From Gigantopelta aegis (lineage: Eukaryota > Mollusca > Gastropoda > Neomphalida > Peltospiridae): a stretch of 64,000 nucleotides of DNA. The notes below the pieces were generated by a model. The model ran no database searches. It worked only from the letters and a program-made list of their open reading frames with translations, and was not told where the DNA came from. How positions within the stretch are numbered: position 1 is the stretch's first letter; the number at the start of each line of letters is the position of its first letter. Where the stretch lies: the NCBI RefSeq assembly GCF_016097555.1, contig NC_054713.1:8140845-8204844 (forward strand). Direction: 5' to 3'. The translations under genes and the position numbers were made by a program. Positions 3,401 to 43,536 of this stretch are shown piece after piece.

Positions 3401-3414
3401 AGTGTCCAGGACAA

Positions 3415-6411: not shown

Positions 6412-9400
6412 ATGATGAATGGTTTTCAATATATTTTGTGTGCGTCGCTTCTGATTCACATTTATGCATCAGAAGATCTGTACGATGTACTTGACGTCAA
6501 TAAAGATGCGTCTTCTAATGATATCAGACAAGCTTATAAAAGACTTGCAAGGGAATGGTAGGTTATAATTTTAGCCAAATTGAATCAAAATGTTTTGGGG
6601 AAAGTTCTGCTCTTCTCCCTTCCCCACATACATTGTATTATCATTTACACTTTTTTTTTTCCTTCATCATGTTACTAAAGGGGGTAATGGGTGGTATCGT
6701 CCTTTGACTGCTCGAGTTGCCTCCAGCCCTCCTTTTTTGATATTCATATTGGTATGTACTGGAAGGCTAGAGGAAACTCTATGTAATGCTTTGGCAATCA
6801 TCAACTACCAAACCGGTCGTGGTTAGGCCATCGGTCTACAAGCTGGTAGGTACTGGGTTCTGATCCCAGTCGAGACATGGGATTTTTAATCCAGATACAG
6901 ACTCCAAACCCAGAGTGAGTCCAGGGCTGCCAACAATTACGATTTATGCGGAATCATTACGATTTTCCATCTCTTATTACGCCATTACGCCCGTAATCTG
7001 AAAGATTACGGCAAATCCGCGTTTTCCTGTTTTTTTGCGGTTTTTTTTGTAATAACCTACCGCCCCTACGAATCACATAAATTGGACTCACCCAACTAGC
7101 CGCAAATGAGCACGGAAGTTTTTTTGCGCGTGCAACACACTTCGGGATAGACGTAGCTTGTGAAACGATGCCATTTTGTAAAGATGTCGAAAAAACGCAA
7201 ACGATCAGAGCCATATGAACTGTGCAAAGCTCAGAAAAAGCCAAAAGTAGTACAGAAGTATAAACAGGACTACAGCAATGAGTGGCCTGTTTTGAAGGCC
7301 AGTTCTGTTAGTAATACTAGTGCATTTTGTACTTTATGTCGTGTTGATTTTTCTGTTGGCCATGGCGGGAAAAATGATTGCCAAAGGCGCATCAAAATGA
7401 AGAAACACCAGGACATCGTTGAGGCCAGCGATAAAACAATTCATAAAGAAATATCTGGATATTTTATACAGCAAAAGGGTTTATACGACGAGTCACAATT
7501 CACGCGAAAATGATTACTCTTTCCCGTTTTTAAATGTTGGCAGCTATGTGAGTGCTCCACAAAGCTCAATGGGTAGGTGTAAATCACTTGCACCGACCAG
7601 TGGTCCATAACTGGTTCAACAAAGGTCATGGTTTGTGTTATTCTGCCTGTGGGAAGCGCAAATAAAAGATCCCTTGCTGCTAATCAGAAAGAGTAGCCCA
7701 TATAGTGGCGACAGTGGGTTTCCTCTCAAAATCTGTGTGGTCCTTAACCATATGTCTGACGCCATATAACCATAAATAAAATGTGTTGAATGTGTCGTTA
7801 AATAAAACATTTCTTTCTTTTCTTTCATCGACAACCAAATGGTCGCAAGCTACTGTGTCTAAAAGGTACTAGACGTTTTGCCCCCCAGCCAGTTCACCCC
7901 CAGTCAATTCGCCCCCAGTCAGTTCAGTGTTCGAGATAACGGTATCCCGATATCCCAGGGATACCAGAATTTAATTTTGGATACCAGACTTCAAGAACCC
8001 AGTATCCCACCGGGATGCCATATAATACTAAATTCTCAGGTGGGATACCAGATTTTGAAATGTTAGTATCCAACTGGGATACTGGCCAAAAATTTTAATC
8101 TCGAACACTGCAGTTCGCCCCCAAATAGGATGTCAGTTCGCCCCCACATGCATAACCAGTTTGCCCCTACAAAGGTACCAGTTCACCCCCAGTCAGTTCG
8201 GGTCATGTTCCTGGCCTGGAAAGTCATGAAATTTTTATATTGGTCATGGAACGACCTGAGAGTAATAAAGTTCTGTTCTGATATATCCATACGTGTTTGT
8301 TCTGTGTTGAATATGAATGCTAGGCAGGTCAGGTCATAGGGTTTTACATGCATATTCAGAACAAGCTGTTGTTTGCACACCGTCCATGACAGGCCAGGCT
8401 AAGCTGGTCATTCGCGCTTTTATGGCCATTATCACGTGTTAACCTGTTAACTGTAATCAGTCATAGTGTTTTTAGAAGATGATCATCTTTTTTGATGTTC
8501 ATGGTTACTAATTAGTGGCCAAAAGAACCCCCGCAATAATCCCTCAATTGGAATAATGCTCACCAGAAGAGGCCATATCGAATTGCTGTTCAAAGCCCTC
8601 TTAGGTGTTAGCCGAAGATGCATAATCAGCATCAAGGTTATGTAGCTGATTAACCATTGTTTTATTTATTTCTTCTTAAAACAGATCCTATCTGGCAGGA
8701 ATGGATGTTTTAATAAATGTTGATGATGTGGTTTGTGTGAATTTGTGAAAAAATGTCGGTGTCTACGCTTATTCAGCACCCTACGTTTAATTACATCTGA
8801 AAAAAATATAACCCCGTATTACAATTCTCATGATTCATGATCAGTCCAAATTGTGGAAGGACAACAACCCCTCCCCTCTAAGAAAAGAAACACACACAAC
8901 ACACACACACACACACAAACACACTTTAACATCCTCTAAAGAAACAGTACAATAATTGTTTTAAAGTAACAAATAATTGGGGGCGAACTGACTAAAAGTT
9001 GGGGGCGAACTGACTAAAAGTTGGGGGCGAACTGACAAATATTTGGGGGTGAACAGGCGAACTGGTACATGGGGCGAACAGGGCAAACTGACAGGGGGTA
9101 CAAAATGGCTGCACCCGTTATATATAATAGCCGTCACATTTAACCGTTTTATTAATTAACTATACGATTATACTTGTTGATATTAAGCAATAATGTGCAT
9201 TATGTATCGTTGAATATGCACACCAGTCCAAAAGCCTTGCTTTAGCATTCCTTTAATGATAGATGGCAAAAATTAAATTCTGAAATATTGCTTGAATTCT
9301 ACTATTTAATCTTGGTGATTATATATATATATATATTAATATGGCACGATACTGAACAAGATGTTCCCTGCATGATTTAATGTTTTGTACTAATTTCAGG

Positions 9401-12400
9401 CATCCTGACAAGAACAAAGCACCTGATGCTGCTGACAAGTTTACAAAAATAAATGAGGCATACGAGGTAAAGAATCAAACACACAGACCTGTGGGTCTAA
9501 CAGCGTTCGAAATAAGCACTTGTCCATTTGTCCAGTCGTCATGGGTTCCAGCGTGTACATATTAGGAATATTGACGAGTTCCGAATGCCCTACTTGGATC
9601 ACCGAGATCAATACTTTATTTTATTGCCAAATAATATTCAATATTCAGCATCATTTGCATTTAAAAAGAATTTTAAGAAATATATTTTGGGGATACCTTA
9701 CAAACAAATAACAGCAGGTCATATTTTGCTTCCTATTTCGAGCTTGGTATACAGTCAGTTTAGGATCGATCCCCATCACTGGGTCCATTCGGCTATTTTC
9801 CAGCTATTGGTATATATACTATCTTATCTTTGGGATGAGGGGAGGGATATAACCTAATGATAAAACACTTGCCTTATGTACAGTCAATCTAGGATCGATC
9901 CCCATCGGTGGGTCCATTGGGCTATTTTCCAGCCATTGGTATCTTATCTACATGCAAACGCTAATCGGAAAGAGTAGCCAATTAAGTGGCAGTAACAGGT
10001 TTCGTCTCTAATTATCTGTGTGTCAGATGCCATATAACTGTAATAATAATTAAAATAAAATGTGTCGAGTGCGTCGTTAAATAAAGCATTCTTTTTTTTT
10101 TTTTTTTTTTTTTACCGGCCTCGTTGGCGTCGTGGTTAGGCCATCGGTCTACAGGCTGGTAGGTACTGGGTTCGAATCCCCCAGTCGAGGCATGAGTTTT
10201 TTCATCCAGATACCGACTCCAAACCCTGAGTGAGTGCTACGCAAGGTTCAATGGGTAGGTGTAAACCACTTGCACCAACCAGTGATCCATAACTGGTTCA
10301 ACAAAGGCCATGGTTTGTGCTATCCTGCCTATGGGAAGCGCAAATAAAAGATCCCTTGCTGCTAATCGGAAAGAGTAGCCCATGTAGTGGCGACAGCGGT
10401 TTTCCTCTCAAAATCTGTGTGATCTTTAACCATATGTCTGACGCCATATAACCGTAAATAAAATGTGTTGAGTGCGTCGTTAAATAAAACATTTCTTTCT
10501 TTACCTTTCTTTTGTTTTTCATTGTTTTCTCATGTTTAAGGTGGGTGGTAACCCAGTGGTAAATTGCTCGCTTGATGTACAGTTGGTCTAGATCAGACCC
10601 CATCGGTGAGCCATTGGGCTGTTTTCTCGTTCACGCCGGTGCATCACAACTGGTATATCAATGGCCGTGGTATGTGCTAATCGTTCTGAATTGGTGAAAA
10701 TGAAAGTTCCTTTGCTGCTAATGGAAAAATGTAGCAGGTTTCCTCCTCTCTAAGACTATATGTAAAAAATTATCAAATGTTTAACATCCATTAACCATTG
10801 ATTAATAAATTCGTGTGCTGTAATGGTGTCATTAAACAAAACAAGCTTTAGCTTTCCTCTAAGACTATATTCCAAAATTACTATATTGGTGACACCCAGT
10901 AGCCGATGATTAATAAAGCAATGTGCTGTAGTGGTGTTGTTAAACAAAACAAACTTTAGCTTTCGTCTCTAAGACTATATGTCAAAATCACTATATGGGG
11001 GACATCCATTAGCCGATGATTAATAAATCAATGTGCTCTAGTGGTGCCATTAAACAAAACAAATTTTAACTTTCTTTCTCCTGTTTCCTACAGACCCTGA
11101 GTAACCCAGAGAAGAGATCTGCGTACGACAATTATGGCTACACGTCTCAGAATGGACGACGACAGCCTTTCCATCAGCCGAATGGTTTCTTCCCATTTGA
11201 CGACTTCTTTTCCGGCTCCGGCTTCAATTTTAACTTCGGAAAAGGTTCATCTATTCTTGATAGATACTCCACAACGCTGAGGTAATTATTGTTGTTATGG
11301 GGGATTTTTTTTTCAGAATTATTTTTGGGCTGGCTGTAGGAAATTTTAGTTAGGTGATGGAAATTTATGGTAAATGTATTTAAAATACTGCAGGACGAGT
11401 GTTACAAAATCTTGAATAAATCCCTGCTAAAAAACAAATTCCTCTTCTGTGAATGGTATTGTGTTTGTTCATTCACCCGCAGTGTGATATGACATAACCT
11501 TGATCCTCTTATTGGAGGGGGTGGGAGGTAGGACGTAGCCAGGTGGTAAAGTGCTCGCTTGATGCACAGTGGGCCCAATGGGCTATTTCTCGTTTCAGCC
11601 AGTGCACCACGACTGGTATATCAAAAGCTGTGGTATGTGCTATCCATTTTGTGGGATGGTGCATATAAAAGATTCCTTGCTACTAATGAAAAAAAATGTA
11701 GCGGGTTTCCTCTATAAGACTATATGTCAAATTTACCAAACGTTTGACATCCAATAGCCGATGTGCTCTAGTTAAACGAATCCTCTTTTCTTTCTTTTTT
11801 TCATTAATCAATATATGTCAAATTTACCAAACGTTTGACATCCAGTAGCCGATGTGCTCTAGTTAAACGAATCCTCTTTTCTTTCTTTTTTTTCATTAAT
11901 CAGTATATGTGAGTGTTTTGTATAAATTTTAGGCATTTGTTTCATTAATCAATGTATGTGAGTGTTTTGTGTAAATTTTAGGCATTTGTTTCATTAATCA
12001 ATGTATGTGAGTGTTTTGTATAAATTTTAGGCATTTGTTTCATTAATCAATGTATGTGAGTGTTTTGTATAAATTTTAGGCATTTGTTTCATTAATCAAT
12101 GTATGTGAGTGTTTTGTATAAATTTTAGGCATTTGTTTCATTAATCAATGTATGTGAGTGTTTTGTATTAATTTTAGGCATTTGTTTCATTAATCAATGT
12201 ATGTGAGTGTTTTGTATTAATTTTAGGCATATATTTTTTTCTTGGGGCGGGATGTAGTCCAGTGGTAAAGTGCTTGCTTGATGCGTGGTTGGTTTAAGAT
12301 CGATCGCCGTCGGTGGACCCATTGGGCTATTTCTCGTTCTAGCCAGTGCTCCACAACTGGTGTAACAAAGGCCGTGGTTGTACTATCCTGTCTATGGGAT

Positions 12401-15400
12401 GATGCATATAAAAGATCCCTTGCTGCTAATCGGAAAGAGTAGTCCATGGAGTGGTGACAGCAGGTTTCCTCTCTATATCTGTGTGGTCCTTAACCATTGT
12501 CCTTAACCATATAACTGTAAATAAAATGTGTTACGTGCATCGTTAAATAAAACATTTCTTTCCTTTTTTCTTCTTTTTTTATCCTCTTTTTATTTATTTT
12601 CTTCCATTAATGGGTATTTGTGTGTGTTTGTATTTTAGGCATTTTGAGATGAGATTGTTGCCCGAGAGTCACAAGACCCCATGCTTCATTTACCTTCACA
12701 GCAGTTTCTGTTTCGAGTGTATGCGCATTGAACCATACATTGAGAAGTTTATTGCCGAACTGGAAACAGTCGGTTAGTATTCAGCACGTTAATTGAGTTG
12801 ATTGGTTGTGTGTGGTCAGGCTTTCTTACTGAAAATAGCTTGAGGTTACGTAACAAAGCTAAACCAGACCGTAAGTGTCCTTACTAGGTGGTTATTGGTT
12901 TGAAATGTTTTGAAATTGGATACTGCTTTGCATGTACTTTGCTATTTCTCGTTCCAGCCAGTGCTCCACAACTGGTGTAACAAAGGCTGTGGTATGTGCT
13001 ACCCTGTCTGTGGGATGGCGCATATAAAAGATCCCTTGCTGCTAAACGAAAAAAGTAGCCCACGAAGTGCCAACAACAGGTTTCCTCTCTCAATATCTGT
13101 GTGGTCCTTAACCATATGTCTGACACCATATAACCTTAAATAAAATGTGTTTAGTGAATCGTTAAATAAAACCTTCCTTCCTTCACCATACCACTTGCCC
13201 AGTTGTGATCAGTTAGTACTACATATAACAAGTTACTTCAAACCAATGGGCTATTGAAATACTACAGAGGTTAACCTCTGTGTAATCATCAAAGAAAGAT
13301 GTTCCACAATAAAATGAAGCATATTATAATTATAATGTTAATATGTTGGGTTTTTGTTTTTGTTTTAATTCTGTAGGACTTTGTATTGGAACTGCTCACA
13401 TGGCAGTGAACCGAGGCATTTCTAGTCATCTTCGAATCCACGACGTGCCCGCAATTGTCGGTCTAGTGAACGGCAGACCAACGTTCTTTAGCGGACCTGT
13501 CAACCTGCAGACACTGAGGGAGTTTGTCCGCAACTGGTTTCCCAAGGATACACTTACAAACGTAGGAAAACTTTTAACAGTTTTCGGGTTTTTTGAAACG
13601 TACTGTTCAACTCAACTTTTGCTCTTTGGGTACATTTTGAAACAACTCTTTGTAAGATAAATGATATCTAATGGCTACTCATGAAGTATTTTCTATATAA
13701 ACACCTTGATGTAAGATAAAATATATAATCTAATGGCTACTCATGTAGTATTTATTTCTTCTGTTATTTTTATAACAAAGTAAAGTTAAAACCAGACCAA
13801 AAATATTTTGCCACGTTGCAGCTAATTATTACAAGACGACATTATGTATATTTTCATTCCAATAGATTTTTGATTTTTATAAAAAAAATGTGTTGAAAAT
13901 CCTGCATTAAAATAGCTTTTTGGCTAAAACTACTAAAAGAAAAATGACCAAGAGTTAACTCTCTTGAATATTGACATACTTTGTATGATTTTTTTCTTGA
14001 ATGGTGACAATATCAGGGGTGGGAATTAGTGAACTGTAAAATAAGGGAAGTCTAGAGGGGTCCCAGAAATTCTTGAAATCTTAGGTTAAAATCTGTGCCA
14101 TCTGACACATTTTGGAGGAAAGGACTATTAAAATGCGAGGAAACGCAATGTTCCATGGGAGGAAAATAGCTGATCTGAGGAGAATTCCCACCCCTGTGAC
14201 ATACATGCAATTTGTATGATTTATCCCATGTGCTGTATAGTGTACATACTGAAAACGTTAAAATTACATCGGGAGTACTTAAGGTGTCCATGTTTTCAGA
14301 TAAATTTGGAACGTTTAGCATAGGTATTTCATAAGACGCTTTGAAGCGCTTACAAGAAAGCAAAAACAGGAATAAAACACTGTACTAGTTATTGTGAATA
14401 CATATACAGTAAAATAAAATTTAAACTGTACAGCTCATAATTTTATTACAAAGCAGGGCTTCTCGAATTTTTATAAATTCCACTTGCCATCAAATCAGTG
14501 ATTTAAAAAAAATTACTACCGTAGTCACAAATTTTAGTAATTCACTAGTCCTATTTTGCTTTAAGTTAATACAATTTTACTAAATAATAGTAATAATTGG
14601 ATATGCCACCTAAAGATGGAGATATATCTTTAAAGTTTGGGGGTGGATATTAATTATTTGCAAAATAGACTTAACTGCAACATTTGACACATTGTTTCCA
14701 CTAGCCGTCGGGCAAGGCAATAGTAGTTATCTTTCTAGCCCAACACTGAATATCACTAGCCATTGGAGTGGGGCTACCATAATCTAGAAGCCCTGTCTGG
14801 CATGGCAATTGTAGTTATTTCCTAGCCCAACACTGAATATCACTAGCCATGGGGGTGGGGCTACCATAATCTAGAAGCCCTGTCGGGCATGGCAATAGTA
14901 GTTATTTTTCTAGCCCAACACTGAATATCACTAGCCATTGGAGTGGGGCTACCATAATCTAGAAGCCCTGTCTGGCATGGCAATAGTAGTTATCTTTCTA
15001 GCCCAACACTGAATATCACTAGCCATTGGAGTGGGGCTACCATAATCTAGAAGCCCTGTCTGGCATGGCAATAGTAGTTATTTACTAGCCCAACACTGAA
15101 TATCACTAGCCATGGGAGTGGGGCTACTATAATCTAGAAGCCCTGTCTGGCATGGCAATAGTAGTTATCTTTCTAGCCCAACACTGAATATCACTAGCCA
15201 TTGGAGTGGGGCTACCATAATCTAGAAGCCCTGTCTGGCATGGCAATAGTTGTTATTTACTAGCCCAACATTTAATATCACTAGCCATGGGAGTGGGGCT
15301 ACTATAATCTAGAAGCCCTGTCTGGCATGGCAATAGTAGTTATCTTTCTAGCCCAACACTGAATATCACTAGCCATTGGAGTGGGGCTACCATAATCTAG

Positions 15401-18400
15401 AAACCCTGCAAATTTAACCTTTGTATGAATATTCCGTTTATCAGGTTGATGACAACAACTACGAGACATTCATCAGTGGATGGAGAGACAACCACGTGCG
15501 AGCGATTTTCTTCAGTCACCGAGATCGGCCTTCAACGCGGTTCTTAGCGCCGGCGTTTCTCTACCGAGACTATGTGACGTTCGGCTACGTAAACATGAAG
15601 TCTGAATCTATCACAAATCTGATGAAGAGGTTTGGCGTAAATCAAAATCACGAGTCACTGCTACTGTTCAATGAGGAATCCGTTCCTGTGGCAACTATCA
15701 GTGTAAGAAAACATCCATTCTCTTTGCTATGTCTTAACCTTACTCTGTGTTAACTTTTTTCTTACTGTGGAATTTACTACAAGTGATTTATTTCTTAGCT
15801 GATTGATTTCTAATTTATACACAAAAATTAAATATTTTTAGCTATTTTCAAAACACTTTTACTTTTCATCTTACGTCAAACCAAATTGAAATTATTTGCA
15901 AAAAAAAAACATTTTTGTAGGAGGATTTGACGAACTATATGTAATAACATCGGGTATTGGCCTTACTCTGTGATGGTAAAAATGGGGAATTTCTGTCTGG
16001 CTTGAACAGGATAAAACTGATAGCCTATGTTATTATCTGGTTATTATCTCTTTATCGTGTACTCCCAATAAACAGGGGGCGAGACGTAACCCAGTGGTAA
16101 AGCGCTTGCTTGACACGCAGTCGGTTTGGGATCGATCCCTGTCAGTGAGCCCATTGGGCTATTTCTCGCTCCAGCCAGTGCACCACGACTGGTATATCAA
16201 AGGCTGTGTTTCGTTTTCTCGTGCAAATTTGCACCGATGTTTGTGTGCACTTGTGCAATTGCAAGCAATTTTGGCAATCCACGTTTAAGCAGTGCCCACA
16301 AGATAAATTTACTTCCGGGTTTCGTTTCTCGTACCGATCTTCACGTGCACCGATACAATTTCAGAACATCCGAGTTTTAGCAGCGTCAACTAGATGTGTG
16401 CATGTATGTTTACTACAATAATCATCTGGCACACATGTAAGGGTGTTAAAAGTAGTAGTAACAGGAATTCAATTCTAACTTTCATATAGTTGTGGTAACC
16501 TATAGGTTACCAAGCTATATTTGTGGGAACCTATAAATGGCTTACCAGACACAATGCTTATTTCGATGCCTGCAGGTGAATGGTTTTTTGACATACATGT
16601 AGATGTAATGTACACATGTATGTGATGTACATGTGTATGAGACATTGTAAATGATATCTTGCTATGTAGCAGGTTATGTCTTTGTTGTATCCAGTCATCA
16701 TAATCTGTCAATGCAAACAGTTATTGCAGAAAAAAACACCTTTAATGGTTAATTTTTGTAATAAAATAACGTTAAAACCGGACAAAAAATTGTTTGGCAT
16801 GATATTGTCAAATATCAGGAGATGACGTTACACATGTTTTCAAGAAAAGCTGTGTCAATTTCATTAAAACGATATGCAATGTGATGAAAATCTATGGATG
16901 CAATTATCTTTGACACTGAATAATGTTACGATAGGTGATGTTATTTAATTCTACAGAATGCTTATAATTAGTAAATGAAGTAATAGTTATATTATGGTGA
17001 ATCGAGATGGTGACTTCAGTGTAATATTTTATTTTGTCACAGATGAAACAGTTACAGAGGAAAACACTGGATGAGGTGATTGAACAAAATCGCTTCCTCA
17101 TTCTGCCGAGACTGTCATCACAGAAACATTTTGATGAACTCTGTCCCGTGCAGCCGAAAGTTGCTAGACGAAGGTAAGCGTAGAAAAGAGAGGAATGTTA
17201 CAGTGACTATCTGTCACGGGGATCCTATAATACCCGTAACTGAATAAAACACGATTATCCAAATCTCTCTCCTAACTGTATATCTATTAGATCTCTCTGT
17301 ATCGGGCCGTGTATACCCGAGTAGCTTGGCTCTAGGTATAAACAGAGATATGATCTTATATAAAGTATATATAATATAGCCCGTTAGTTCACTAGAAAAC
17401 ACAACAAAACACAATACACTTTGGAATCTGTATTAACATTACGCTGACAAATATATTTGCCGCAGTTAATTACTTACAACAATAATAATAATAACAACCC
17501 GGAACTAATCACTTAATTAGTTAATCACTAGGTGTCTAGTTTACACAATATTCTAATCACTTCACCGTGATGCAACACACACACGTGTGATAATTGAGAA
17601 ACGCTTCCAGGGGAACTTAATTAATAAAGGACTTACAACTCTATTCCTACTTGGTTAATTTTTAATTAACCCTTAACTACTCATTCAGTAACCTTGTAAT
17701 ACAGAATTAATACTGGTACCTATCACAATAAAGACACTAACCTACTGTTTAACTATGTCCTCTAGGATGACTAGCTAAGCTTTAATAATTTTAGCACAGT
17801 GAAGCCTACAATTTACTTCGTCAGTTTACCGGAAACACTGTCTAAATAATATGGGTATAATACAGTATTAAAATATTTAAAGTCACATCAATCACATCAA
17901 GGTTATACAACAGAGCAGAAATATATATTTACCAGTCCAAACGGACTAACATTCCCTGGAAGCCTTCCAATATGTTTCTCCCCGATATCTCTAAAATCCG
18001 AATATTGCCGGGGGGCACAACGCGGAACCTCACCTATCATGTGAATTTGCCCCAACTCCCAGAGACGGTATTTTTCCGTAGATAGCCAGACTTACTGTCG
18101 CCTAGTTTGCCAAAAATCACGGTCTTAAAACCGCACTATCGTAGGTATTACATAACTACTGGCCACATGGCCTCCACACCTGGTCTAAGTGTGTATAAGG
18201 GGGTACGGTCGTGCGGAGGTATTATGTAACCAAGTGCACACAGCCCTCTGAAACAATTAACATCGCCACAGGCGAAAGAAAAATAAGAGCATGTTCCGTC
18301 ACACTATCCCAATGGAAAAATGCAGCCGGTTACCTATCTATAACTGTGTAAAAATGACCATATGCAGGGGACAATATTTCGAAATCTGAGGTAACCGGAA

Positions 18401-21400
18401 GTCGGTTCACGTGGTTTTTACCTAGGTAACCAATTGTTCGGTTACGTGAATTATGTGTGCGTAATCTGTGGATTACCTGATCGGTTACCTCAAAGTTACG
18501 CTGAAATTATATTTTAAATACATAATGTTTAGCTCAAACATAAAGTTAAAACAAAATACAAAAGAAAACGTTTTATAAAACAGTTTCTGTAATGCTTGCA
18601 AATCGAAAGAAGTAACTTGTAGATGTTTCTTTTGTTTTCGTACGATCGTAGCGTTGTAGATTTATTATTGTTATTATTATTATTATTATTATTCACCACT
18701 TGCCATCGGGATCGCAAAAAGTAATTTTTAGTTGCCCAAATCTAAAAACCACTGTCCTCGGGCATCGGGCCACCGTATTCTAGAACCTCTGTGCAGCTTG
18801 CTGAAGTTAACACTATTAGCCCAGTACTGAAACAAAATAGATACATTTGGAGGGAAAATGTCGATTCCCTGGTTCCTCTGAAGTATAATGCAAAACACTC
18901 AGTCACTCACTGGTGCATGATTTGACTAATATTTTTTTATATAAATAACAAATAACGGCTACCATTTGTCACTGATAATATGTAAAATTTAGTATACAGC
19001 AGATTTTTAAAAACCCACCAAAAAACCCAAACAACAGATGTCCAGTTCCTCTGAATTATAAAACAGGCTACTCATTGGTGCATGATTAGATTAATAAAAC
19101 TAAATCTTATAATAACATAAAAAGAAAGACCACAATTTGACACTGATATTTTGCAGTGGTGATGCTATATTCACTTTATTGCTGGTACTTCTATACTACA
19201 GTGACGTTCCAAATGTTTATTTAAAGCACATTATGCGATGTTAGTATTTTTCAGCTTTTGTGACATTTTTGCATTTTTGTTTAAGTTAAAACCGTTTTGA
19301 ACCTTTGTAAAATTATGGGCAATCCAATATTATGTCTACATATATTCCTTTAGAAATAGAATAGCAGCAGATAATTTAGACACCTTAGCGGTGCATGCAC
19401 ATATCTTTAAAACTTTGGCTCGACTCTATACTGAGCCTTCGGTCGCAAGTTACAACAGTTGCAATATACCGTTGTCTACTGGTTTGCCGCGCATCAAGTA
19501 CTAAAAATCAATCTAAAACATTTGCCGGAATACTAGTAGTATGTCTGCATGAATAAATTTCCTGTAATCGTAAAGTTTGGTAGTTTTAATTTGTGAACAT
19601 CTACAGGTCACGACGTAACCGATTTGCGGTTCGCATAAATTTAATTTTGCGTAACCAACACGCGAAGAGAACGGCGGTTCGCGTGAAATATTGTGCCCGG
19701 ATATGTTTCAAATCCAATAGCCTGTTATTAATAAATCAATGTCATCTAGTGTCTTCATTAAATAGAAACAAATTTGTTTAGTGTTTATTTCTAAATAATA
19801 ACTCCTTTTTAATGACTAAATTTTACAGTTTATTGTTTAGAAAATCAAGTTTCTGAATATCCAATGTGTTTTTGTATAATTAGAAATTATATATTTTGGG
19901 AATTTTTATTCTAAATATTGAGAATTTTCAGTGCCACTGACAAGGGGCCTATTTTTTGGACCCACAGAATGTCTGGATGAATTTCTGTTTCCATAAACAG
20001 GACAATACATACCACAGCCAATGATGTACCAGTTTTGAGGGCATCGATTGGCATGATCAATCCAGCAACCCTTTGCACCTCAGGTCTGAACTCTACCACT
20101 ACATCCTGGCCAAATTTATAACAAACTTTATTATCTTTCTCTTCTTTGTTTTTTTAGTTTCTGTATCGTCTTGGTGACGAAGGAGTCTGAGGATCACGAC
20201 TACCACCGGTCGACGTTCCGCGACTTCGCTCAGTCATCACGGACTCCGCCGAGTCGTGTGAAATATGTGTATATCTACGAGGAGAAACAGTCCAATTTCA
20301 TCGGTGCACTACTCAAGGGCAACAAGACGAGGCAAGAGAGTGTTTTGGAGGTAAAGTTAAAGTTTGTTTTAACAACACCACCAGAGCACATTAATTTATT
20401 AATCATCGGCTGTTGGACGTCAAATATTTGGTAATTTAGACATTATAGTCTAAGAGAGGAAACATGTTACATTGTTCCATTAGTAGCAAAGGATCTTTTA
20501 TATACACCATCCCACAGACAGGATAGCACATACCACAGCCTTTTATATACACCATCCCACAGACAGGATAGTACATACCACAGCCTTTTATATACACCAT
20601 CCCACAGACAGGATAGTACATACCACAGCCTTTTATATACACCATCCCACAGAAATAGCACATAGCACAGCCTTTTATATACACCATCCCACAGACAGGA
20701 TTACATACCACAGCGGCTATTGGGTGTCCAAACAGTTTGGAACAAAAAAATAGAGCACATTGATTTATTAATCATCGGCTGTTGGGTGTCAAACATTTGG
20801 TAATTTAAGACATAATACTAATAATCTCAGAGAGGAAATCCACATACCACGGCCTTTGAAATACATGTACCAGTCGTGGTGAGCTGGCTGGAACAAGAAA
20901 TAGGATTTAGAGGTGTATGCGTGTCACTGTTAGGTGTAAATTCAAGATAGGGCCTCAGAGTACCATGTTCATACCTTGTCATTTCAGGGGAGCTATCACA
21001 GGCCTGGAAATACATTTTCAATGGTGCCTGACGAAATGACCTGTGTCAATCGATTTGAGCCTGTCTAAATTAAACTGTGCCTGTCAACCAAATGTTGAAA
21101 CGATGTTACTATTGTCCTTTATTAATCATGTACTATTACATATACTCGAAGAAATACTTTTCATGATGTAGTGAAAAGATGCATAGCTTGTTTGAGCCAT
21201 TTGGAACATATCAGATGATCGGGCTTACTCGAGTATGTTCCGGACAAATGCGATGGCATTCTAGCAACAGTGCCATAAGCACGTGCATGCTGCATGATAT
21301 GGTCAAAATATTATCTTAGATCTACATTTTAAAACATACAGCAGATCAAACTTCTTCACGACAGAAATACTTCAGACAAAATGACCACTAATATTAAATT

Positions 21401-24400
21401 TGTGACTGTCAAGGCTTGACAAATGACATATTTGTATCAGACAACATCCGTGACTGGCCACTTATTTCCATGCTTGCTAACACTCCACTAATTCAAGGAG
21501 AGATATTACTTTTTAAAAAAAGAGGGGAGTGAGTAGTGCGGTAGAGGGTGTCTATCTAACTGATGTTTCTTGATTTAAAAAAACTAAACAAATTAGTTCA
21601 TTATGTTTTACTTGGATTTAAAAATGACAAAATACCTTTACCCATGCAACAGGTTGCTATAATATGGAGAGTTGACAAGAAGAAGGTGAATTACGAATTC
21701 CTAGAAGATGGGTGGAGCTCGGACACACACTTGAACAGCATTAGTCGGAAACGGCTGGAGGAGAGACTAACAAGTCTGCTAACCAGCGACCACCTCCTAC
21801 CATACAGAGTGACATACCCGGAACTGTACAACGAACACGCACTGGTGAATTTTTGTTTTTTCAACCTCTGAACATGTATCTATTAATTTCCAAGATTTTA
21901 CAGTAAGTACTTTTACTGGCAAAGATAACTAGAATTCACTTCTCGTGTTTTTGTATATGAAAAATATCAACCTCATCAAGTTAATCAGTATTTGTCTTGG
22001 CGGATCCTCGGTTTATATTTTCTATATTAAAAAAAAACCCACTTGCGGTGAACCCAGCACTAGTTTTACACGTAAACCTACGACTAAACTACAATTCTTA
22101 TTACTACTAATAGAACACTAATATAGCTTGAAGTACACATAGTACATTTTCTTTTCACCTTAAGATGCTGCATCTTTCACAATGATGTAATTTTCAGCGT
22201 GAAATACATGCCAAACACATGTAAACCTATGACGGGTATAACTGCTGGTCACAGACGTAAGCTTAGGATACTTTGTGAAATGGGCTCCAGAATTACATAA
22301 ACCCAATATTATTTCCTTGTAGGGGCTGCTGACAAGAATATTGTACAGGCTGCTAGACTGGGCTGACAGAGCTTATATGTACGCACTAGGGTAAGTAATA
22401 TACTTTAGAAACAGGGCTGACAGGGCTTATATGTACGCACTAGGGTAAGTAATATACTTTAGAAACAGGGCTGACAGAGCTTATATGTATGCACTAGGGT
22501 AAGTAATATACTTTAGAAACAGGGCTGACAGAGCTTATATGTACGCACTAGGGAAAGTAATATACTTTAGAAACAGGGCTGACAGAGCTTATATGTATGC
22601 ACTAGGGTAAGTAATATACTTTAGAAACAGGGCTGACAGAGCTTATATGTATGCACTAGGGTAAGTAATATACTTTAGAAACAGGGCTGACAGAGCTTAT
22701 ATGTACGCACTAGGGTAAGTAATATACTTTAGAAACAGGGCTGACAGGGCTTATATGTACGCACTAGGGTAAGTAATATACTTTAGAAACAGGGCTGACA
22801 GAGCTTATATGTACGCACTAGGGTAAGTAATATACTTTAGAAACAGGGCTGACAGAGCTTATATGTACGCACTAGGGTAAGTAATATACTTTAGAAACAG
22901 GGCTGACAGAGCTTATATGTACGTACTAAGGTAAGTAATATACTTTAGAAACAGGGCTGACAGAGCTTATATGTACGCACTAAGGTAAGTAATATACTTT
23001 AGAAACAGGGCTTATATGTACGCACTAAGGTAAGTAATATACTTTAGAAACAGGGCTGACAGGGCTTATATGTACGCACTAAGGTAAGTAATATACTTTA
23101 GAAACAGGGTTGACAGAATTTACATGTAGTACATATTTTAGAAACAGGGTTGACAGAATTTACATGTAGTACATATTTTAGAAACAGGGTTGACAGAATT
23201 TACATGTAGTACATGCAGTACATATTTTAGAAACAGGGTTGACAGAATTTACATGTAGTACATATAGAAACGGTTGACAGAATTTACATGTAGTACATAT
23301 TATAGAAACAGGGTTGACAGAATTTACATGTAGTACATATTATAGAAACAGGGCTGACAGAATTTACATGTAGTACATATTATAGAAACAGGGCTGACAG
23401 AATTTACATGTAGTACATATTTTAGAAACAGGGCTGACAGAATTTACATGTAGTACATATTATAGAAACGGGGCTGACAGAATTTACATGTAGTACATAT
23501 TATAGAAACAGGGTTGACAGAATTTACTTGAGACTGTTTGTTAAGTCTTATACAGACATGGCATAAGCAAGTCGACATGGGGGTAGAGGGGCTGACTGAA
23601 ATTGAGACTGTTTGTTAAGTCTTATACAGACATGGTATAAGCAGGTCAACATGGGGGTAGAGGGGCTGACTGAAATTAAGACTGTTCGTTAAGTCTTATA
23701 CAGACACGTCATAAGCAAGTCGACATGGGGGTAGGGGGCTGACTGAAATTGAGACTGTTTCGTTAAGACTTATACAGACACGTCATAAGCAAGTCGACAT
23801 GGGGGTAGACTGACTGAAATTTTTCGTTAAGTCTTATACAGACACGGCATAAGCAAGTCGACATGGGGGTAGAGGGGCTGACTGAAATTGAGACTGTTTG
23901 TTAAGTCTTATACAGACATGGTATAAGCAGGTCAACATGGGGGTAGAGGGGCTGACTGAAATTGAGACTGTTCGTTAAGTCTTATACAGACACGGCATAA
24001 GCAAGTCGACATGGGTGTAGGGGGGCTGACTGAAATTAAGACTGTTCGTTAAGTCTTATACAGACACGGCATAAGCAAGTCGACATGGGGGTAGAGGGGC
24101 TGACTGAAATTGAGACTGTTCGTTAAGTCTTATACAGACACGTCATAAGCAAGTCGACATGGGGGTAGGGGGCTGACTGAAATTGAGACTGTTTCGTTAA
24201 GTCTTATACAGACACGTCATAAGCAAGTCGACATGGGGGTAGGGGGCTGACTGAAATTGAGACTGTTTCGTTAAGTCTTATACAGACACGGCATAAGCAA
24301 GTCGACATGGGGGTAGAGGGGCTGACTGAAATTGAGACTGTTTGTTAAGTCTTATACAGACATGGTATAAGCAGGTCAACATGGGGGTAGAGGGGCTGAC

Positions 24401-27400
24401 TGAAATTGAGACTGAAGTCTTATACAGACACGGCATAAGCAAGTCGACATGGGTGTAGGGGGGCTGACTGAAATTGAGACTGTTTCGTTAAGTCTTATAC
24501 AGACACGTCATAAGCAAGTCGACATGGGGGTAGAGGGGCTGACTGAAATTGAGACTGTTTGTTAAGTCTTATACAGACATGGTATAAGCAAGTCGACATG
24601 GGTGTAGGGGGGCTGACTGAAATTGAGACTGTTTCGTTAAGTCTTATACAGACATGGTATAAGCAGGTCAACATGGGGGTAGAGGGGCTGACTGAAATTG
24701 AGACTGTTCGTTAAGTCTTATACAGACACGGCATAAGCAAGTCGACATGGGTGTAGGGGGGCTGACTGAAATTGAGACTGTTTCGTTAAGTCTTATACAG
24801 ACATGGTATAAGCAGGTCAACATGGGGGTAGAGGGGCTGACTGAAATTGAGACTGTTCGTTAAGTCTTATACAGACATGGTATAAGCAAGTCGACATGGG
24901 GCTGGGGGGGGGGGGTGTGACTGAAATTGAGGGTGCAAAGCACATTTTCTAAGGGGTTCAGGGGTATGCTCCTCCGTAAAATTTTAAAAACAAAATGTCC
25001 TGGAATGCAAGTTCCTGCATTCATCTCTGCCTTAAGAGTTACTACCAGTAATATTTTTAATTCAGAATTATCTTTGCTCCTACATGCATGTTTTGGGTTT
25101 TTTTTTTAATTTTATCCCATTGCCCCCTTTCCTTTCTCATTTCTTCCCGATCTGGCAACTCCTCCTCCTTTCAACTTCTTTTGCTGTCCACCTCCACATT
25201 CCAGTCCTTGGTCATGCCTGTTATTAATGTCAGTGACCAGCAAACGTTTTGTGAGCACTGGGATCTTGGGCTCATCCAAAAACTGGATGTTGATTTTTAA
25301 AATGTTTTTTCAGTTATGACACGACTGTGTATCTGACTGTCCTCATGTCCGTGTTTCTGGTTGTGGTCATGGGATTGTTCATGCATCACCTAGCAACCAT
25401 CGAAGAACAGCAGGTCCAGCAGACGAGAGCTGCGGCGAGGGATATGAAACGACCCCAGAGGTCAGTGTTATAGATTAACAGCCTTTCACAGTATGTAAAA
25501 ATTATAGTTAAATACTCAGTGATAGATTAACAGCCTTTCACAATATGTAACAATAATAGTTAAAGCAAGGCTTCTAGAATTTTTATAAAATCCACTAGCC
25601 ATGGGATCAGTGGTTTTAAAAATTTACTAGCCATGATTAAAATTCACTAGCCCAACTTTACTTTAAGTTAATATAATTTTACTAAATAATAATAATAATT
25701 GGATGTGTCACCCAAAGAGTGAGATAGAACCATAAAACACTAACATTGGGGGGTGGGGGCATGATATTAATATTTATAAAATAGACTTAACTGCAACATT
25801 TGACAAAATATTTTCACTAGCCGTCTGGCATGGCAATAGTAGATATTTACTAGCCTAACATTGAATATCACTAGATCACAGAATCTAGAAGCCTTGGTTA
25901 AAAGCACAAAACGACCCCAGAGGTCAGTGTTACAGATTAACAGCCTTTCACAGCATGTAATAATAATACTGTTAATTGTTAAAGACATAATCATACTACA
26001 AAAAATATTACTATTTGCAAAACACAGTAATGTGGTATTTTAATACAGATGTACAGGAATTGAATTTTGGGATTTTGTTTTATTATTAACCTTTTTACTA
26101 AGATCTCACCGGAGTCTTTAAAATGATGAAATATGGATATTTTGGTATTTCATCTTAAGACTTATAATCTTGCACTTCCGACCCAGAATCTGAGATTCAC
26201 GAAAGCACATAGTTTTGCTAAATTTGCAGCTTGTGTGTGTGTGTGTCAGCTGATTTGAATTCAGTTCAGATCTTGTTGATATTTTTAAAATTCTTTAACA
26301 GCTACAGTATAACTGTGAGGAATTAGTACTATGGTCCTATAACCCACACTGAGCCAATTAAATACAACCTGGGTAAAAGCTTGTATAGGGATGTAACTCC
26401 AGTATCTACCAGCCTTTTTGCTGAATTGAATTCCGTATTTAACAAAACCACATTATAAAAAAGTATTGACTGTTGGTGGTCAACACAAAAATTCAAGAAT
26501 TATCAATAAAACTGTGTAAACAGCTGTGAAAGAGTCAGATGTTTGAAAGACAATGACGCATATCACCATATCATACTGCTGTGTACCAACAGTGAAATAT
26601 CATGGCTAAAACACTAAACTACTGATGCTTCTTAAGAACATTACCTTTACTTTTACTTTTACGTCATAATAAATTAAACGCCATATTTTTTATTTAAATA
26701 TTCTTTAAAATTTGGAGGAAGGGGTGAGGTGAAATTTGATTTGATATTTTCAGCATATTTGAAATACAGGACATGCATTACATATTATATGTTTAAAGAA
26801 CAAAGAATTTTCTTTAATTTTTGTGAAAGTGAAAAGAAGAAAAATGGTGGTGAGCCATTATCCTTGCATGAATGGGGATGAAAATTTTGAAATTTAATTT
26901 ATTGTGGTCTCATGAATTGTTCTTTGTTTTGCAGTGTTTTCCAAGACTCTAAGCTTCACTTGTACGAGCTGAAGTTTGAGACGTACGTGAACCTGGTGAA
27001 AGAAGCTGACACGGGACTGACGATCGTCGTGTTTGTTGGCGAGACGTCGCGAGAACCGCTCTGTACCAAGTTCGCAGCACTGATGTACCCATACGCAAGG
27101 TACTAGTATTTACTAAGCTTCTTCATGTAAAGTTTATAGGAAGGGTCACTATGGTATGTGCTGTCCTATATATGGGAAAGTGCATGTGAAAGATTGCCTG
27201 CTGCTTATGTGGTGGCAGAAGATTTCCGTTCTTTCGACAAAGTATAAAAATATATAATGTAAATAGAACAAATTTAGCATGCATAAAATATTAGCGAATT
27301 TATTGAGGCTATAGTTTGTTTTGTTTTGTTTAACGACACCACTAGAGCACATCAATTTATGAATCATCAGCTATTGAATGTCAAACATTTGGTAATTTTG

Positions 27401-28195
27401 ACATATAGTCTTAGAGAGGAAACATGCTACATTTTTCCATTAGTAGCAAAGGATCTTTTATATGCACTATCCCACAGACAGAATAGCACATACCACGGCC
27501 TTTGATATACCAGGCGTGGTGCACTGGCTGGAACAAGAAATAGCCCAATGGGCCAGATCGATCCCAAACCAACTGCATCAAGCTATGTCCCACCTTAATG
27601 AGGTTATAAAAACACTAATATCATATTACTACAATTTTCTATTGCATAATGTTGACATATATTAAAGTATTCTTTCAGCCGATTTTACAACTTAAGCTTA
27701 TTTGTTTAATGTCATATCTATAATTACAAATTAAAGTGTGTTTTTTTATATTTCTATAAGGCCTGTCAAAACAAATTTAGGTTTTTTTACCAACAAAACT
27801 ACATTTTTCTCCCCCACAGATACAGTGCCCTGACGTTTGCGTTCCTACGACTGGAGTACTACATCAGCTGGTACCAACATCTCCTGGAGGAGAGCCTCGA
27901 CTTCAAACTCAAACTCGACAACATCAACATCCGCAACTGTCTCGGCACCGTACTGGCAATCAATGGCTACCGAAAGTACTTCTACATCTACCACCCGAAA
28001 AACACACTGCCGTGGATGCGCAAACACAGCAACATTTCAAAGTCTATCGGTTTCTTTGACGACGATTCAGACCCGGAGATGGAGGACAAACCTGTGGAAC
28101 ATCTCCTCGATGGTTTGTGTCTGTGGGTCGATAAGATGTTCGATGGATCGGTGAAAAAGATCAGGATACCTTACTGGCCGGACATGTTTTCTTGA
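6412..28195 (+). CDS. DNAJC16: DnaJ homolog subfamily C member 16, complete, 13 exons
   Basis: J-domain co-chaperone, in vertebrates a single-pass membrane protein of the ER/secretory system. My exons: 6412-6557, 9400-9466, 11094-11281, 12639-12772, 13377-13561, 15445-15702, 17043-17173, 20158-20350, 21653-21844, 22323-22390, 25314-25460, 26935-27099, 27820-28195. They total 2250 nt (749 aa plus stop) and keep frame across 12 GT-AG introns; human DNAJC16 is about 780 aa. Seen: hydrophobic N-terminal signal (residues 1-20), J domain with HPD at 50-52, thioredoxin-like site CFEC at 158-161 (CFSC in human, as I recall it), further thioredoxin-like segments, one membrane span at about 526-546, and C-terminus IPYWPDMFS matching the family ending IPSWPELD. 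Two ATGs are adjacent at 6412 and 6415; I took the first. Converges with LSG1. Exons 4, 10, 11 and 13 have edges copied into tandem repeats (separate entries). Confidence 0.95.
6815..7825 (+). mobile_element. SINE type B, split by a hAT-like insertion
   Basis: Left part 6815-6921: head with GGTTAGGCCATCGG and B-box GGTTCTGATCC. Right part ~7549-7825: AGTGCTCCACAAAGCTC, core, and tail GTCGTTAAATAAAACATTTC. The break lies in the middle of the normally continuous GAGTGAGTGCTCC stretch, so the SINE is older than the insertion. Confidence 0.85.
6922..7548 (+). mobile_element. hAT-like deletion derivative with a zinc-finger ORF
   Basis: Ends CAGGGCTGCCAACA and TGTTGGCAGCTATG are inverted repeats (12 of 14 match). 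Inside, ATG at 7184 opens 109 codons to 7513: a basic N-terminus (MSKKRKR), then a C-x2-C pair in FCTLCRVDF, then KKH, resembling the N-terminal zinc finger of hAT-type transposase-like proteins. The catalytic RNase H-like part is absent, so the element cannot move by itself. It is inserted in a type B SINE; flanks (AGTGAGTC / TGAGTGCT) are imperfect target duplications. Confidence 0.7.
7925..8110. mobile_element. 186-bp MITE nested in the left end of the larger element
   Basis: Perfect inverted ends CAGTGTTCGAGAT and ATCTCGAACACTG. The interior repeats GGGATACCAG / GTATCCC motifs in both directions, so it should fold into a long hairpin. CAGTT flanks both sides. Confidence 0.75.
8884..8926. 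repeat. (CA)n microsatellite
   Basis: Short (CA)n run inside the 7871-9108 element. Confidence 0.8.
9757..10100 (+). mobile_element. SINE fragments, mosaic A head / B tail
   Basis: 9757-9830 is a partial head with GGATCGATCCCCATC. 9838-10100 is a second copy with a degenerate type A head and a type B tail (AATGTGTCGAGTGCGTCG). It ends in a T-rich tract. Confidence 0.7.
10115..10505 (+). mobile_element. SINE type B, full length
   Basis: Head CCGGCCTCGTTGGCGTCG, A box GTGGTTAGGCC, B box GGTTCGAATCC, core with CAAATAAAAGATCCCTTGC, tail CGTTAAATAAAACATTTC. A good reference copy of this type. Confidence 0.92.
10540..11075 (+). mobile_element. SINE type A with tail repeated three times
   Basis: Head and core 10540-10740, then the 3' part (CTAAGACTATAT through TTAAACAAAACAA) occurs three times in tandem, ending about 10855, 10950 and 11070. 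The last copy ends about 20 bases before the DNAJC16 exon 3 acceptor at 11093. Confidence 0.85.
11525..11880 (+). mobile_element. SINE type A, head deleted inside, tail duplicated
   Basis: The A box TAGCCAGGTGGTAAAG is present but the B-box part is lost. The tail (ATGTCAAATTTACCAAACG to CGAATCCTC) is present twice, at ~11726-11790 and ~11815-11880. Confidence 0.8.
11885..12232 (+). repeat. 49-bp minisatellite made of the exon 4 splice-acceptor region
   Basis: Seven TTTTAGGCAT sites at exact 49-bp spacing (A of AG at 11931, 11980, 12029, 12078, 12127, 12176, 12225). The unit (CATTAATCAATGTATGTGAG, then TTTTGTATAAATTTTAGGCA) resembles the real exon 4 acceptor at 12600-12645, which reads CATTAATGGGTAT, then TTTGTATTTTAGGCATTTT. 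A SINE now separates array and exon. Confidence 0.9.
12243..12565 (+). mobile_element. SINE, type A head with type B tail
   Basis: Starts GGGGCGGGATGTAGTCC (type A head), has GATCGATCGCC at the B box, then core and a type B tail (GTCCTTAACCAT, ATCGTTAAATAAAACATT). It lies between the acceptor-like array and the true exon 4 acceptor of DNAJC16. Confidence 0.88.
12940..13187 (+). mobile_element. SINE A/B chimera, head missing
   Basis: Starts in CTATTTCTCGTTCCAGCC and runs to a type B tail TCGTTAAATAAAACC. Same mosaic as 12243-12565. Confidence 0.8.
13562..14453. other. DNAJC16 intron 5, left part
   Basis: Unique AT-rich intron, except a short imperfect duplication (ATCTAATGGCTACTCATG at ~13669 and ~13729), a motif also seen near 42465 and 52270. 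Confidence 0.5.
14454..14795. mobile_element. MITE of the CAGGGCTTCTAGA family, copy 1
   Basis: Inverted ends CAGGGCTTCTCGAA and CTAGAAGCCCTG, ~340 bp, no ORF. Two other full copies lie at 25566-25896 and 52495-52808 (inverted). The right part is the seed of the 87-bp array that follows. Confidence 0.8.
14705..15410 (+). repeat. 87-bp array derived from the MITE end, ~8 copies
   Basis: Units contain GGCATGGCAATAGTAGTTAT, CTAGCCCAACACTGAATATC and end CCATAATCTAGAAGCCCTG, the same order as the MITE right end. Period is 87 at 14787-14874. The array stops ~35 bases before the exon 6 acceptor of DNAJC16 (15444). Confidence 0.92.
15703..16076. other. DNAJC16 intron 6, left part
   Basis: AT-rich, nothing recognised. 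Confidence 0.4.
16077..16210 (+). mobile_element. SINE type A, 5' half only
   Basis: Head GGGGCGAGACGTAACCCAG, B box GGGATCGATCCC, ends after GGTATATCAAAGGCTGTG. Core and tail absent. Confidence 0.85.
16211..17042. other. DNAJC16 intron 6, right part
   Basis: No gene. 16495-16515 contains a perfect palindrome, GGTAACCTATAGGTTACC. A GTTAAAACC-GGACAAAAA stretch near 16770 resembles 13785-13810, so a weak dispersed repeat is likely. Confidence 0.4.
17212..18303. mobile_element. Solo LTR, 1092 bp, in DNAJC16 intron 7
   Basis: Starts TGTCACGG and ends CCGTCACA (short inverted repeat, TG...CA ends). Flanked by an exact 5-bp target duplication CTATC at 17207-17211 and 18304-18308. No internal retroelement genes lie next to it, so it is what remains after LTR-LTR recombination. 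A TATA-like stretch on minus near 17360 suggests reverse orientation. LTR superfamily not assigned; the intact duplication suggests modest age. Confidence 0.8.
18304..19595. other. DNAJC16 intron 7, middle
   Basis: 18312-18350 resembles a SINE A tail. 18663-18695 is an (ATT)n run. 18690-18790 is a diverged partial copy of the CTAGAAGCC MITE. The rest is not recognised. Confidence 0.5.
19690..19775 (+). mobile_element. SINE type A tail fragment
   Basis: CAAATCCAATAGCC, TTAATAAATCAATGT and CATTAAATAGAAACAAA match the last ~80 bases of type A. Confidence 0.6.
20368..20715 (-). mobile_element. SINE type A with internal 45-bp tandem
   Basis: The tail (plus: ACAACACCACCAGAGCACAT) begins ~20 bases after the exon 8 donor. 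The core segment (ATATACACCATCCCACAG to CCACAGCC) is repeated five times with a 45-bp period. Since 45 is 15 codons, the minus strand shows a repeated open frame (LWYVLSCLWDGVYKR-like); this is not a gene. Confidence 0.88.
20750..20907 (-). mobile_element. SINE type A fragment
   Basis: Tail (GAGCACATTGATTTATTAAT) and GTCGTGGTGAGCTGGCTGG; part of the core is missing. Confidence 0.75.
20997..21476. mobile_element. Possible hAT-type MITE
   Basis: Left CAGGCCTGGAAATA and right TATTTCCATGCTTG are inverted repeats, 12 of 14 matching. No ORF inside. Target duplication not clean. Confidence 0.4.
22375..23100 (+). repeat. 54-bp minisatellite made of the exon 10 donor region
   Basis: Unit: GGGCTGACAGAGCTTATATG, then TACGCACTAGG and GTAAGTAATATACTTTAGAA, then ACA. 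The first unit overlaps DNAJC16 exon 10 and supplies its donor at 22391. GTAAGT recurs at 22445, 22499, 22607, 22661, 22715, 22769, 22823, 22877, 22931, 22985, 23030 and 23084; at 22553 the GT is lost. Each unit carries the last 10 codons of the exon (ADRAYMYALG). Confidence 0.95.
23101..23530 (+). repeat. 40-bp minisatellite
   Basis: Unit TAGAAACAGGGTTGACAGAA, then TTTACATGTAGTACATATTA. The first half matches the TTTAGAAACAGGGCTGACAG part of the 54-bp array next door, so it probably arose from that array. About 10 copies. Confidence 0.93.
23530..24915 (+). repeat. 74-bp minisatellite, ~19 copies
   Basis: Unit contains GAGACTGTTTGTTAAGTCTT, ATACAGACATGG, AAGCAAGTCGACATGG and GGGGCTGACTGAAATT. 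Two sub-variants (ACATGGTATAAGCAGGTCAA and ACACGGCATAAGCAAGTCGA) alternate, a sign of higher-order amplification. Lies in DNAJC16 intron 10. Confidence 0.95.
25447..25930 (+). repeat. Duplicated exon 11 donor region, split by a MITE
   Basis: The end of DNAJC16 exon 11 and its donor (AACGACCCCAGAG with GTCAGTGTTA, 25448-25470) recur at 25909-25932, followed in both places by GATTAACAGCCTTTCACAG. A third partial copy (GATTAACAGCCTTTCACA, ~25523) lacks the exon part. The second donor would be at 25923. Confidence 0.9.
25566..25896. mobile_element. MITE of the CAGGGCTTCTAGA family, copy 2
   Basis: Inverted ends CAAGGCTTCTAGAAT and ATCTAGAAGCCTTG. Flanks GTTAAAG and GTTAAAAG look like a 7-8-bp target duplication, which would fit the hAT superfamily. 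It landed between two copies of the duplicated exon 11 donor region. Confidence 0.82.
25933..26934. other. DNAJC16 intron 11, right part
   Basis: AT-rich; a short (GT)n at ~26231. No gene or clear repeat. Confidence 0.5.
27133..27225 (+). mobile_element. SINE core fragment
   Basis: GGTATGTGCTGTCCTATATA with AAGTGCATGTGAAAGATTGCC matches the core shared by SINE types A and B. Confidence 0.55.
27313..27597 (-). mobile_element. SINE type A, nearly full length
   Basis: On plus: GTTTAACGACACCACTAGAG (tail), core ~27450-27500, CAGATCGATCCCAAACC (B box), ends in the A box CAAGCTATGTCCCACC. In DNAJC16 intron 12. Confidence 0.9.
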
Positions 28196-29130
28196 TAAAT
28201 GTCTGTTTATTCATAGAGAGAGAGGAGAGTGGCTGTGTGTTTTGCAAGATGTCAATTGGATGTCGATTAGAATTTGTCTTCGAACATTTATCGGTGAATA
28301 AAATGTTTTATGGATCAGTGAAAAAGATCTGGATACCTTATTGGCCAGACATGTTTTCTTGATAAATTCTGTTTATTCACAGAGAGAGAGAGGAGAGTGG
28401 CTGTGTGTTTTGCAAAGATGTCAATTGGATGTTGATTAGAATTTGTCTTCAATCTCTTATCAGTGAATAAAATGTTTTATGGATTGGTGAAAAAGATCTG
28501 GATACCTTATTGGCCGGACATGTTTTATGGATGTTTCAGTGACTGTGTTTTGCAGGGAGTCAGCTGACAATACAATAATAAGAAGTCATCTTTGATCTCT
28601 ACAGGAGAATAAAATGTTTATGAATCAGAGAAAGAAAAAACAGAAGCATTATACATTATTGGCAAGATATGTTTTCTTGATAAATTTTGTTTATTCAGAG
28701 AAAGAGGCGAGTGGCTGTGTGTTTTGTCAGATGTCAATTGGATGTCTGGATTAGAAATCGTCTTTGATCTCCATCAGTGAATAAAATGTTACATTGAACA
28801 GCAGTATACATACCTTTTTTGATCATGTGTTTTCTTGATCTTCCTTTGTTATTAGAAACAAGAGGCTGGCTGTGTGTTTTGCAAGGAGTTAATTGACTAT
28901 ATTGATATGAAGTCATGTTTGATCTCAATAGGAGAATAAAATGTTGATGAATCGGAGAAAGAATAAAAAGCATTATACCTTATTGGCCAGACATGTTTTC
29001 TTGATAATGTTTTCTTTTATTCCATGAAAGAAGATAGTGTTTTGCAAGATGTCGATTGTATCTGTCTTGATTAGAAATCGTTTTCAATCTCTATCCGTGA
29101 ATACAATGTTTTATAGATCAGTGATAAAAC
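28140..29130 (+). repeat. Tandem decayed copies of the DNAJC16 last-exon tail and 3' UTR
   Basis: The stretch coding the C-terminus (GTGAAAAAGATCAGGATACC to TTTTCTTGATAAAT) plus the next ~130 bases is repeated with a ~170-bp period, starting at ~28151, ~28317, ~28487, ~28635 and ~28960. The 3' UTR motif GTGGCTGTGTGTTTTGCA recurs alongside. Each repeat carries AATAAA (28297, 28466, 28608, 28780, 28935). Later copies are increasingly diverged. Confidence 0.9.
28297..28302 (+). promoter_or_regulatory. First candidate polyadenylation signal of DNAJC16
   Basis: AATAAA 102 bases after the stop codon. Four more copies (28466, 28608, 28780, 28935) lie in the tandem repeats and could give alternative 3' ends. 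Confidence 0.5.

Positions 29131-43496: not shown

Positions 43497-43536
<40 letters not shown>

Follow-up and report, generated by a model that had tools for sequence, protein, structure and literature searches.

Which splice donor serves a gene when the end of a coding exon has been copied fourteen times in tandem together with its donor, and do the copies do anything? The question is raised by a minisatellite of 54 base pairs (bp) in a stretch of 64,000 nucleotides (nt) of the Gigantopelta aegis genome (NC_054713.1, positions 8,140,845 to 8,204,844 of the forward strand), referred to here as the window, where the array starts at the 3' end of exon 10 of a chaperone gene. It is probably a boundary minisatellite of the type called "mirage", generated by local duplication and removed together with intron 10, with the first donor in use and the products of the decoy donors degraded.

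The gene is split, and the window is therefore eukaryotic. Three of its exons are needed first:

Ending at 6557, before GTAGGT, plus strand: exon in which the J domain starts (exon 1 in the numbering used)
22323 to 22390, plus strand: coding exon 10, 68 nt, encoding GLLTRILYRLLDWADRAYMYAL plus G
25314 to 25460, plus strand: next exon after the array intron, 147 nt, encoding a hydrophobic (membrane-span) stretch; its omission keeps the frame

With the first donor of the array, 12 coding exons from 9400 to 28195 (plus strand) join into a single open frame in which the only stop is the final one. Exon 10 is in open frame with 21653-21844 on one side and 25314-25460 on the other, and its end at 22390, as read previously from the sequence alone, is correct. 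No exon was identified 5' of the one that ends at 6557. The DnaJ domain exceeds the Pfam cut-off (E 1.1e-24), while the thioredoxin match is weak (E 0.0055; 17.1 bits, below the Pfam cut-off of 23.5). The hydrophobic stretch begins at residue 478 of 700 (residues are counted throughout from the exon at 9400). The sequence-only reading had called the gene DNAJC16; the domain make-up is compatible with it, strongly so for DnaJ, and falls short for thioredoxin. We take the gene to be DNAJC16/ERdj8-like, presuming the hallmarks of that family to be a J domain, a thioredoxin-like region and a later membrane span, and the sequence fits an animal-type chaperone gene of this kind.

The array itself and its donors are as follows:

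22361 to 23107, plus strand: 54-bp minisatellite of 14 units, each with 30 nt exonic and 24 nt intronic sequence, and with 13 intact GTAAGT
22391 to 22396, plus strand: true donor GTAAGT of exon 10, first of the array
22445, 22499, 22553 (GAAAGT), 22607, 22661, 22715, 22769, 22823, 22877, 22931, 22985, 23030 and 23084, plus strand: later donor copies

Exon 10 ends in CTAGG/GTAAGT, and its last 30 nt plus the following 24 nt constitute the repeat unit, which therefore spans an exon end and the adjoining intron with a splice signal, as mirage units do. Cutting the array at AAACAG gives the count of 14 units, and Tandem Repeats Finder (TRF) calls it at 22360-23128 with a period of 54, 14.4 copies and 95% match. 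A search tolerating up to 3 mismatches finds 14 occurrences of the 24-nt intronic part, GTAAGTAATATACTTTAGAAACAG (13 exact and one with a single mismatch), compared with a maximum of 0 among 100 shuffles. Only the donor of unit 4 (22553) is broken, having lost its GT. The fourteen-fold repeat of exon end, GTAAGT and intron bases, and the 13 intact donors, had been described correctly by the sequence-only reading. Unit 13 is 45 bp long owing to a 9-bp deletion, and units 11-14 have AAG/GTAAGT in place of AGG/GTAAGT, a common G-to-A change at -2. The mean identity across the 13 full-length units is 97.3%, with five variable positions, four of the 30 exonic and one of the 24 intronic, so that no coding constraint on the exonic parts is visible (Fisher p = 0.37, a weak test with five variable sites). 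The units at the far end are those that share the -2 change and include the deleted one, and a diverged 40-bp array lies beyond them; this order, read off the units and not from a unit tree, would be compatible with a homogenised centre and divergent outer units as in mirages.

Of the 14 unit ends, the first alone keeps the 12-exon frame open, which indirectly supports regular splicing from that donor. Extending exon 10 to any later one gives a stop after 472 residues (13/13), and an intact donor stands at 12 of these 13 ends; the stop on retention of an extra unit had been foreseen from the letters. We propose that a local tandem duplication fell by chance across the 3' end of exon 10, in a part of the gene where local duplication makes up about 30% of the sequence. 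Slippage or unequal exchange presumably then multiplied the duplicate and kept its copies alike. The array would then lie inside intron 10 and be excised with it, mostly from the donor at 22391 to the acceptor before 25314, leaving the 12 other intact donors as decoys. Rare use of one of them would put a stop in frame at once, with exon junctions still to follow, and should thus expose the mRNA to nonsense-mediated decay. If the misspliced RNA were degraded in this way, the protein would therefore be unchanged.

Several observations support this explanation. Local duplication is abundant in the region but shows no preference for exon edges. A 21-bp array at 1-1347 contains 24 GTAAGT in a part of the window, 5' of 6557, that may hold further exons of the gene; a non-exhaustive look identified no exon within the array. 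The far end of the 54-bp array has diverged to donor-less 40-bp units. Lancelet mirages are reported to leave splicing undisturbed (PMC3087553, PMC3902484), and retention of one unit at ABCA7, where an array of donors is also found, is 2 +/- 1% (PMC5954066); here and below, statements on published cases refer to the excerpts of the cited papers that were available.

The strength of the donors weighs against it, as does their predicted structure. The first donor forms a U1 duplex of -11.6 kcal/mol, the strongest of the 11 gene donors scored (the other ten range from -4.3 to -9.5). Eight of the other 12 intact donors in the array reach the same value and the remaining four are stronger still at -12.2; all of these are duplex energies computed with an 11-nt tail, not measured strengths. 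By the general view, splicing often prefers the intron-proximal of two equal donors, and much poison splicing would be predicted. RNA folding does not separate the donors clearly either, with a mean unpaired fraction of 0.22-0.30 across the true donor and the 12 intact decoys; as predicted folding is alike among donors, concealment of the decoys by RNA structure was rejected. That the true donor is the strongest of those scored in the gene might hint at selection for competitiveness.

The remainder of intron 10 and other parts of the gene put the array in context:

23108 to 23527, plus strand: 40-bp array, a diverged relative of the 54-bp unit without donor (blastn matches)
23528 to 24901, plus strand: 74-bp array (TRF)
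11887 to 12230, plus strand: 49-bp minisatellite of 7.0 copies (TRF), with seven acceptor copies like that of exon 12639-12772
11933, 11982, 12031, 12080, 12129, 12178 and 12227, plus strand: first exon-side bases of these seven acceptor copies
25909 to 25975, plus strand: single copy of the 3' end and donor of the membrane-span exon (AGAG/GTCAGT) inside the next intron, 91% over 67 bp, 0/1000 shuffles
28131 to 29053, plus strand: last coding exon's end together with the stop and 3' flank, plus downstream copies (TRF, blastn)
28293-28423, 28467-28532, 28609-28736, 28828-28885 and 28917-29053: the five blastn matches of the last-exon end in the 3' flank

Tandem repeat occupies 86% (22391 to 24901) of the 2923 nt of intron 10. 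The 40-bp and 54-bp units align with a score of 39.5, equalled by 2 of 1000 shuffles. The 74-bp array could not be tied to either, since 359/1000 shuffles score as high against the 54-bp unit and 213/1000 against the 40-bp unit. Likeness between the two halves of exon 10 is weak (22/1000 shuffles; 56/1000 against the whole unit), and we make no claim of a duplication there.

The sequence-only reading presented the array as singular. The array is real, but that account did not mention the gene's other boundary copies, the 40-bp relative or the published class. The acceptor of exon 12639-12772 (TTTTAG/GCATTT) matches the 49-bp array by blastn at a best E of 2e-9 with five further matches at 8e-4, a likeness reached by 0/1000 shuffles in each of two tests. 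On our acceptor matrix, a small one built on 12 sites, the seven copies score 5.75-7.14, compared with 5.12 for the true 12639 site left out (12.44 with itself in the matrix), and the copies can therefore not be dismissed as weak. Use of any of them would bring an early stop (7/7). Lying 5' of the true acceptor, this array is the mirror image of the donor array.

Local duplication is frequent in the gene. Between 5600 and 28600 the share of sequence with a copy within 1 kb is 0.296 (0.322 intronic, 0.062 exonic). The further boundary copies came from BLAST of 11 exons and their flanks against the window, combined with shuffle tests, the exon at 17043 being outside the set and a few edges off by some bases. 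In a separate count, three of 24 exon edges (12 acceptors, 11 donors and the coding end, itself one of the three positives) fall in sequence duplicated within 1 kb, against 0.284 of 3000 random positions, or about 6.8 expected; the acceptor at 12639 is detected by a more sensitive search only, and its inclusion gives 4/24. Preferred amplification at exon edges is thus unsupported (the null includes simple repeats), and the simplest reading is that frequent local duplication occasionally catches an exon edge. Elsewhere in the window, an 83-bp minisatellite at 3412-5430 has 24 copies with 92% match. On the minus strand, 41478-55238 holds several exon-like stretches with the motif NVGKSS at about 43885, presumably of an LSG1-type GTPase.

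Among the alternatives, the one that survives best, although unlikely, is that the array tunes the output of the gene, its decoys diverting a length-dependent share of transcripts to stop-containing RNA or lowering inclusion of the next exon, so that the amount or form of the protein would depend on copy number. The 12 intact decoys with U1 duplexes equal to or above that of the true donor agree with it, as do the stop in all 13 retentions and the membrane-span exon that can be skipped in frame. Longer alleles of the ABCA7 donor array show more next-exon skipping and lower expression (PMC5954066), and the variable number tandem repeat (VNTR) of CBS has been linked to reduced enzyme activity (Lievers 2001, by its title). 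The same ABCA7 excerpts give a unit retention that is constant with length, lancelet mirages reportedly leave splicing intact (PMC3087553, PMC3902484), and the array bears no sign of constraint.

Still less probable, by analogy with ABCA7, is a length-dependent switch between an anchored and a soluble chaperone, in which more copies would cause the membrane-span exon to be skipped more often. Skipping of ABCA7 exon 19 grows with array length (PMC5954066), and array length may affect inclusion of the membrane-span exon here; skipping exon 25314-25460 would leave 651 of the 700 residues. On this analogy, an effect of array length on that exon is the strongest of the further ideas and the most interesting one to test.

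That an assembler inflated the array from one or a few units is, in our view, very unlikely. Faulty assembly in a genome draft seems to affect one lancelet mirage (PMC3087553), but the point changes and the 9-bp deletion that distinguish the units here follow an order, and many other arrays occur in the window (70 TRF rows, overlapping rows counted).

The sequence-only reading also raised the idea that units are spliced in as microexons of 30 nt, each adding a GADRAYMYAL-type block ahead of the membrane span. Its observation that the unit is in phase and free of stops is correct: inclusion of a single unit leaves the frame open in 13/13 cases (30 nt in 12 of them, 21 nt for unit 13), and 11 of the 30-nt units have both splice signals (unit 4 lacks GT). 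By simple arithmetic, about a third of such units would have an exonic part divisible by three through chance alone. Adjacent unit exons would leave introns of 24 nt, and the shortest human intron reported as spliced in the material covered is 43 nt (PMC4463651), while ciliates splice introns of about 25 bp (PMC5014332). Non-adjacent units leave at least 78 nt, and length alone is therefore no bar to unit exons. The unit acceptor AAACAG scores -0.94 (-0.85 in the last unit) and TTTAG -2.5 to -5.3, all below the 12 true acceptors, which score 1.6 to 9.0 when each is left out in turn; on this 12-site matrix the unit has no competent acceptor, and 31% of other AGs in 6600-28000 (n = 1200) reach the score of AAACAG. 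Recruitment of a mirage unit as a new exon has been proposed as a hypothetical model of intron gain (PMC3087553), but given such an acceptor and the 24-nt introns between neighbours we find a splicing device of this sort the least credible of the alternatives. The observation from which our work started was nonetheless sound, and its caution apt.

If real, 13 intact and nearly equal donors of which the first alone is productive would be a natural test of how the spliceosome chooses a 5' splice site among copies, and any difference in copy number between individuals would provide a dose series. Boundary copies at several edges without edge enrichment suggest that arrays of this sort arise as a side effect of frequent local duplication and are not devices. 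Were the length switch true, the gene would yield a chaperone form without membrane anchor.

The array at 22361-23107 was not met among the literature matches listed, in which subscription papers are poorly covered, and the excerpts of PMC3045353, PMC12783039 and PMC4039745 hold no case closer than mirages, ABCA7 and CBS. Human paralogs have been surveyed for internal tandem repeats at exon-intron boundaries (PMC2812944); like our array, those segmental-duplication repeats lie at boundaries and are able to alter splicing, but they belong to recent paralogs and have RNA support for novel introns. In CBS (PMC2630376), c.844_845ins68 duplicates the intron 7/exon 8 junction, and one copy is strongly favoured. 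The 31-bp CBS VNTR, c.1444_1467+7(16_21), crosses the exon end by its coordinates and is similar in having 24 exonic and 7 intronic nt, 16-21 copies and units that differ by single substitutions; its unit is no multiple of three, and its polymorphism is known. The ABCA7 VNTR in intron 18 begins with the exon-18 donor and therefore also consists of tandem donor copies, with retention of one unit independent of length (PMC5954066). It differs in its 25-bp unit starting with the donor GT, in its about 12 to 427 polymorphic units, and in that a single retained unit shifts the frame.

The closest likeness in structure is to the lancelet mirages, tandem repeats across exon-intron boundaries that were described in two globin genes (BflGb6 and BflGb9), with Adh3 cited, may affect either boundary and apparently leave regular splicing undisturbed in Adh3 and globin (PMC3087553). 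PGBD5 was argued to be a further case, with Adh and TnC cited, and without aberrant mRNA (PMC3902484). Adh3 units measure 10-72 bp, and BflGb6 has homogenised central units and diverged boundary units. BflGb6 haplotypes carry 6 and 3 units of 150-160 bp, against 14 units here, and the lancelet cases include RNA, while the present array is known from DNA. The array is thus an exon-intron boundary minisatellite of the known mirage kind, a real and instructive one, and probably not a new mechanism.
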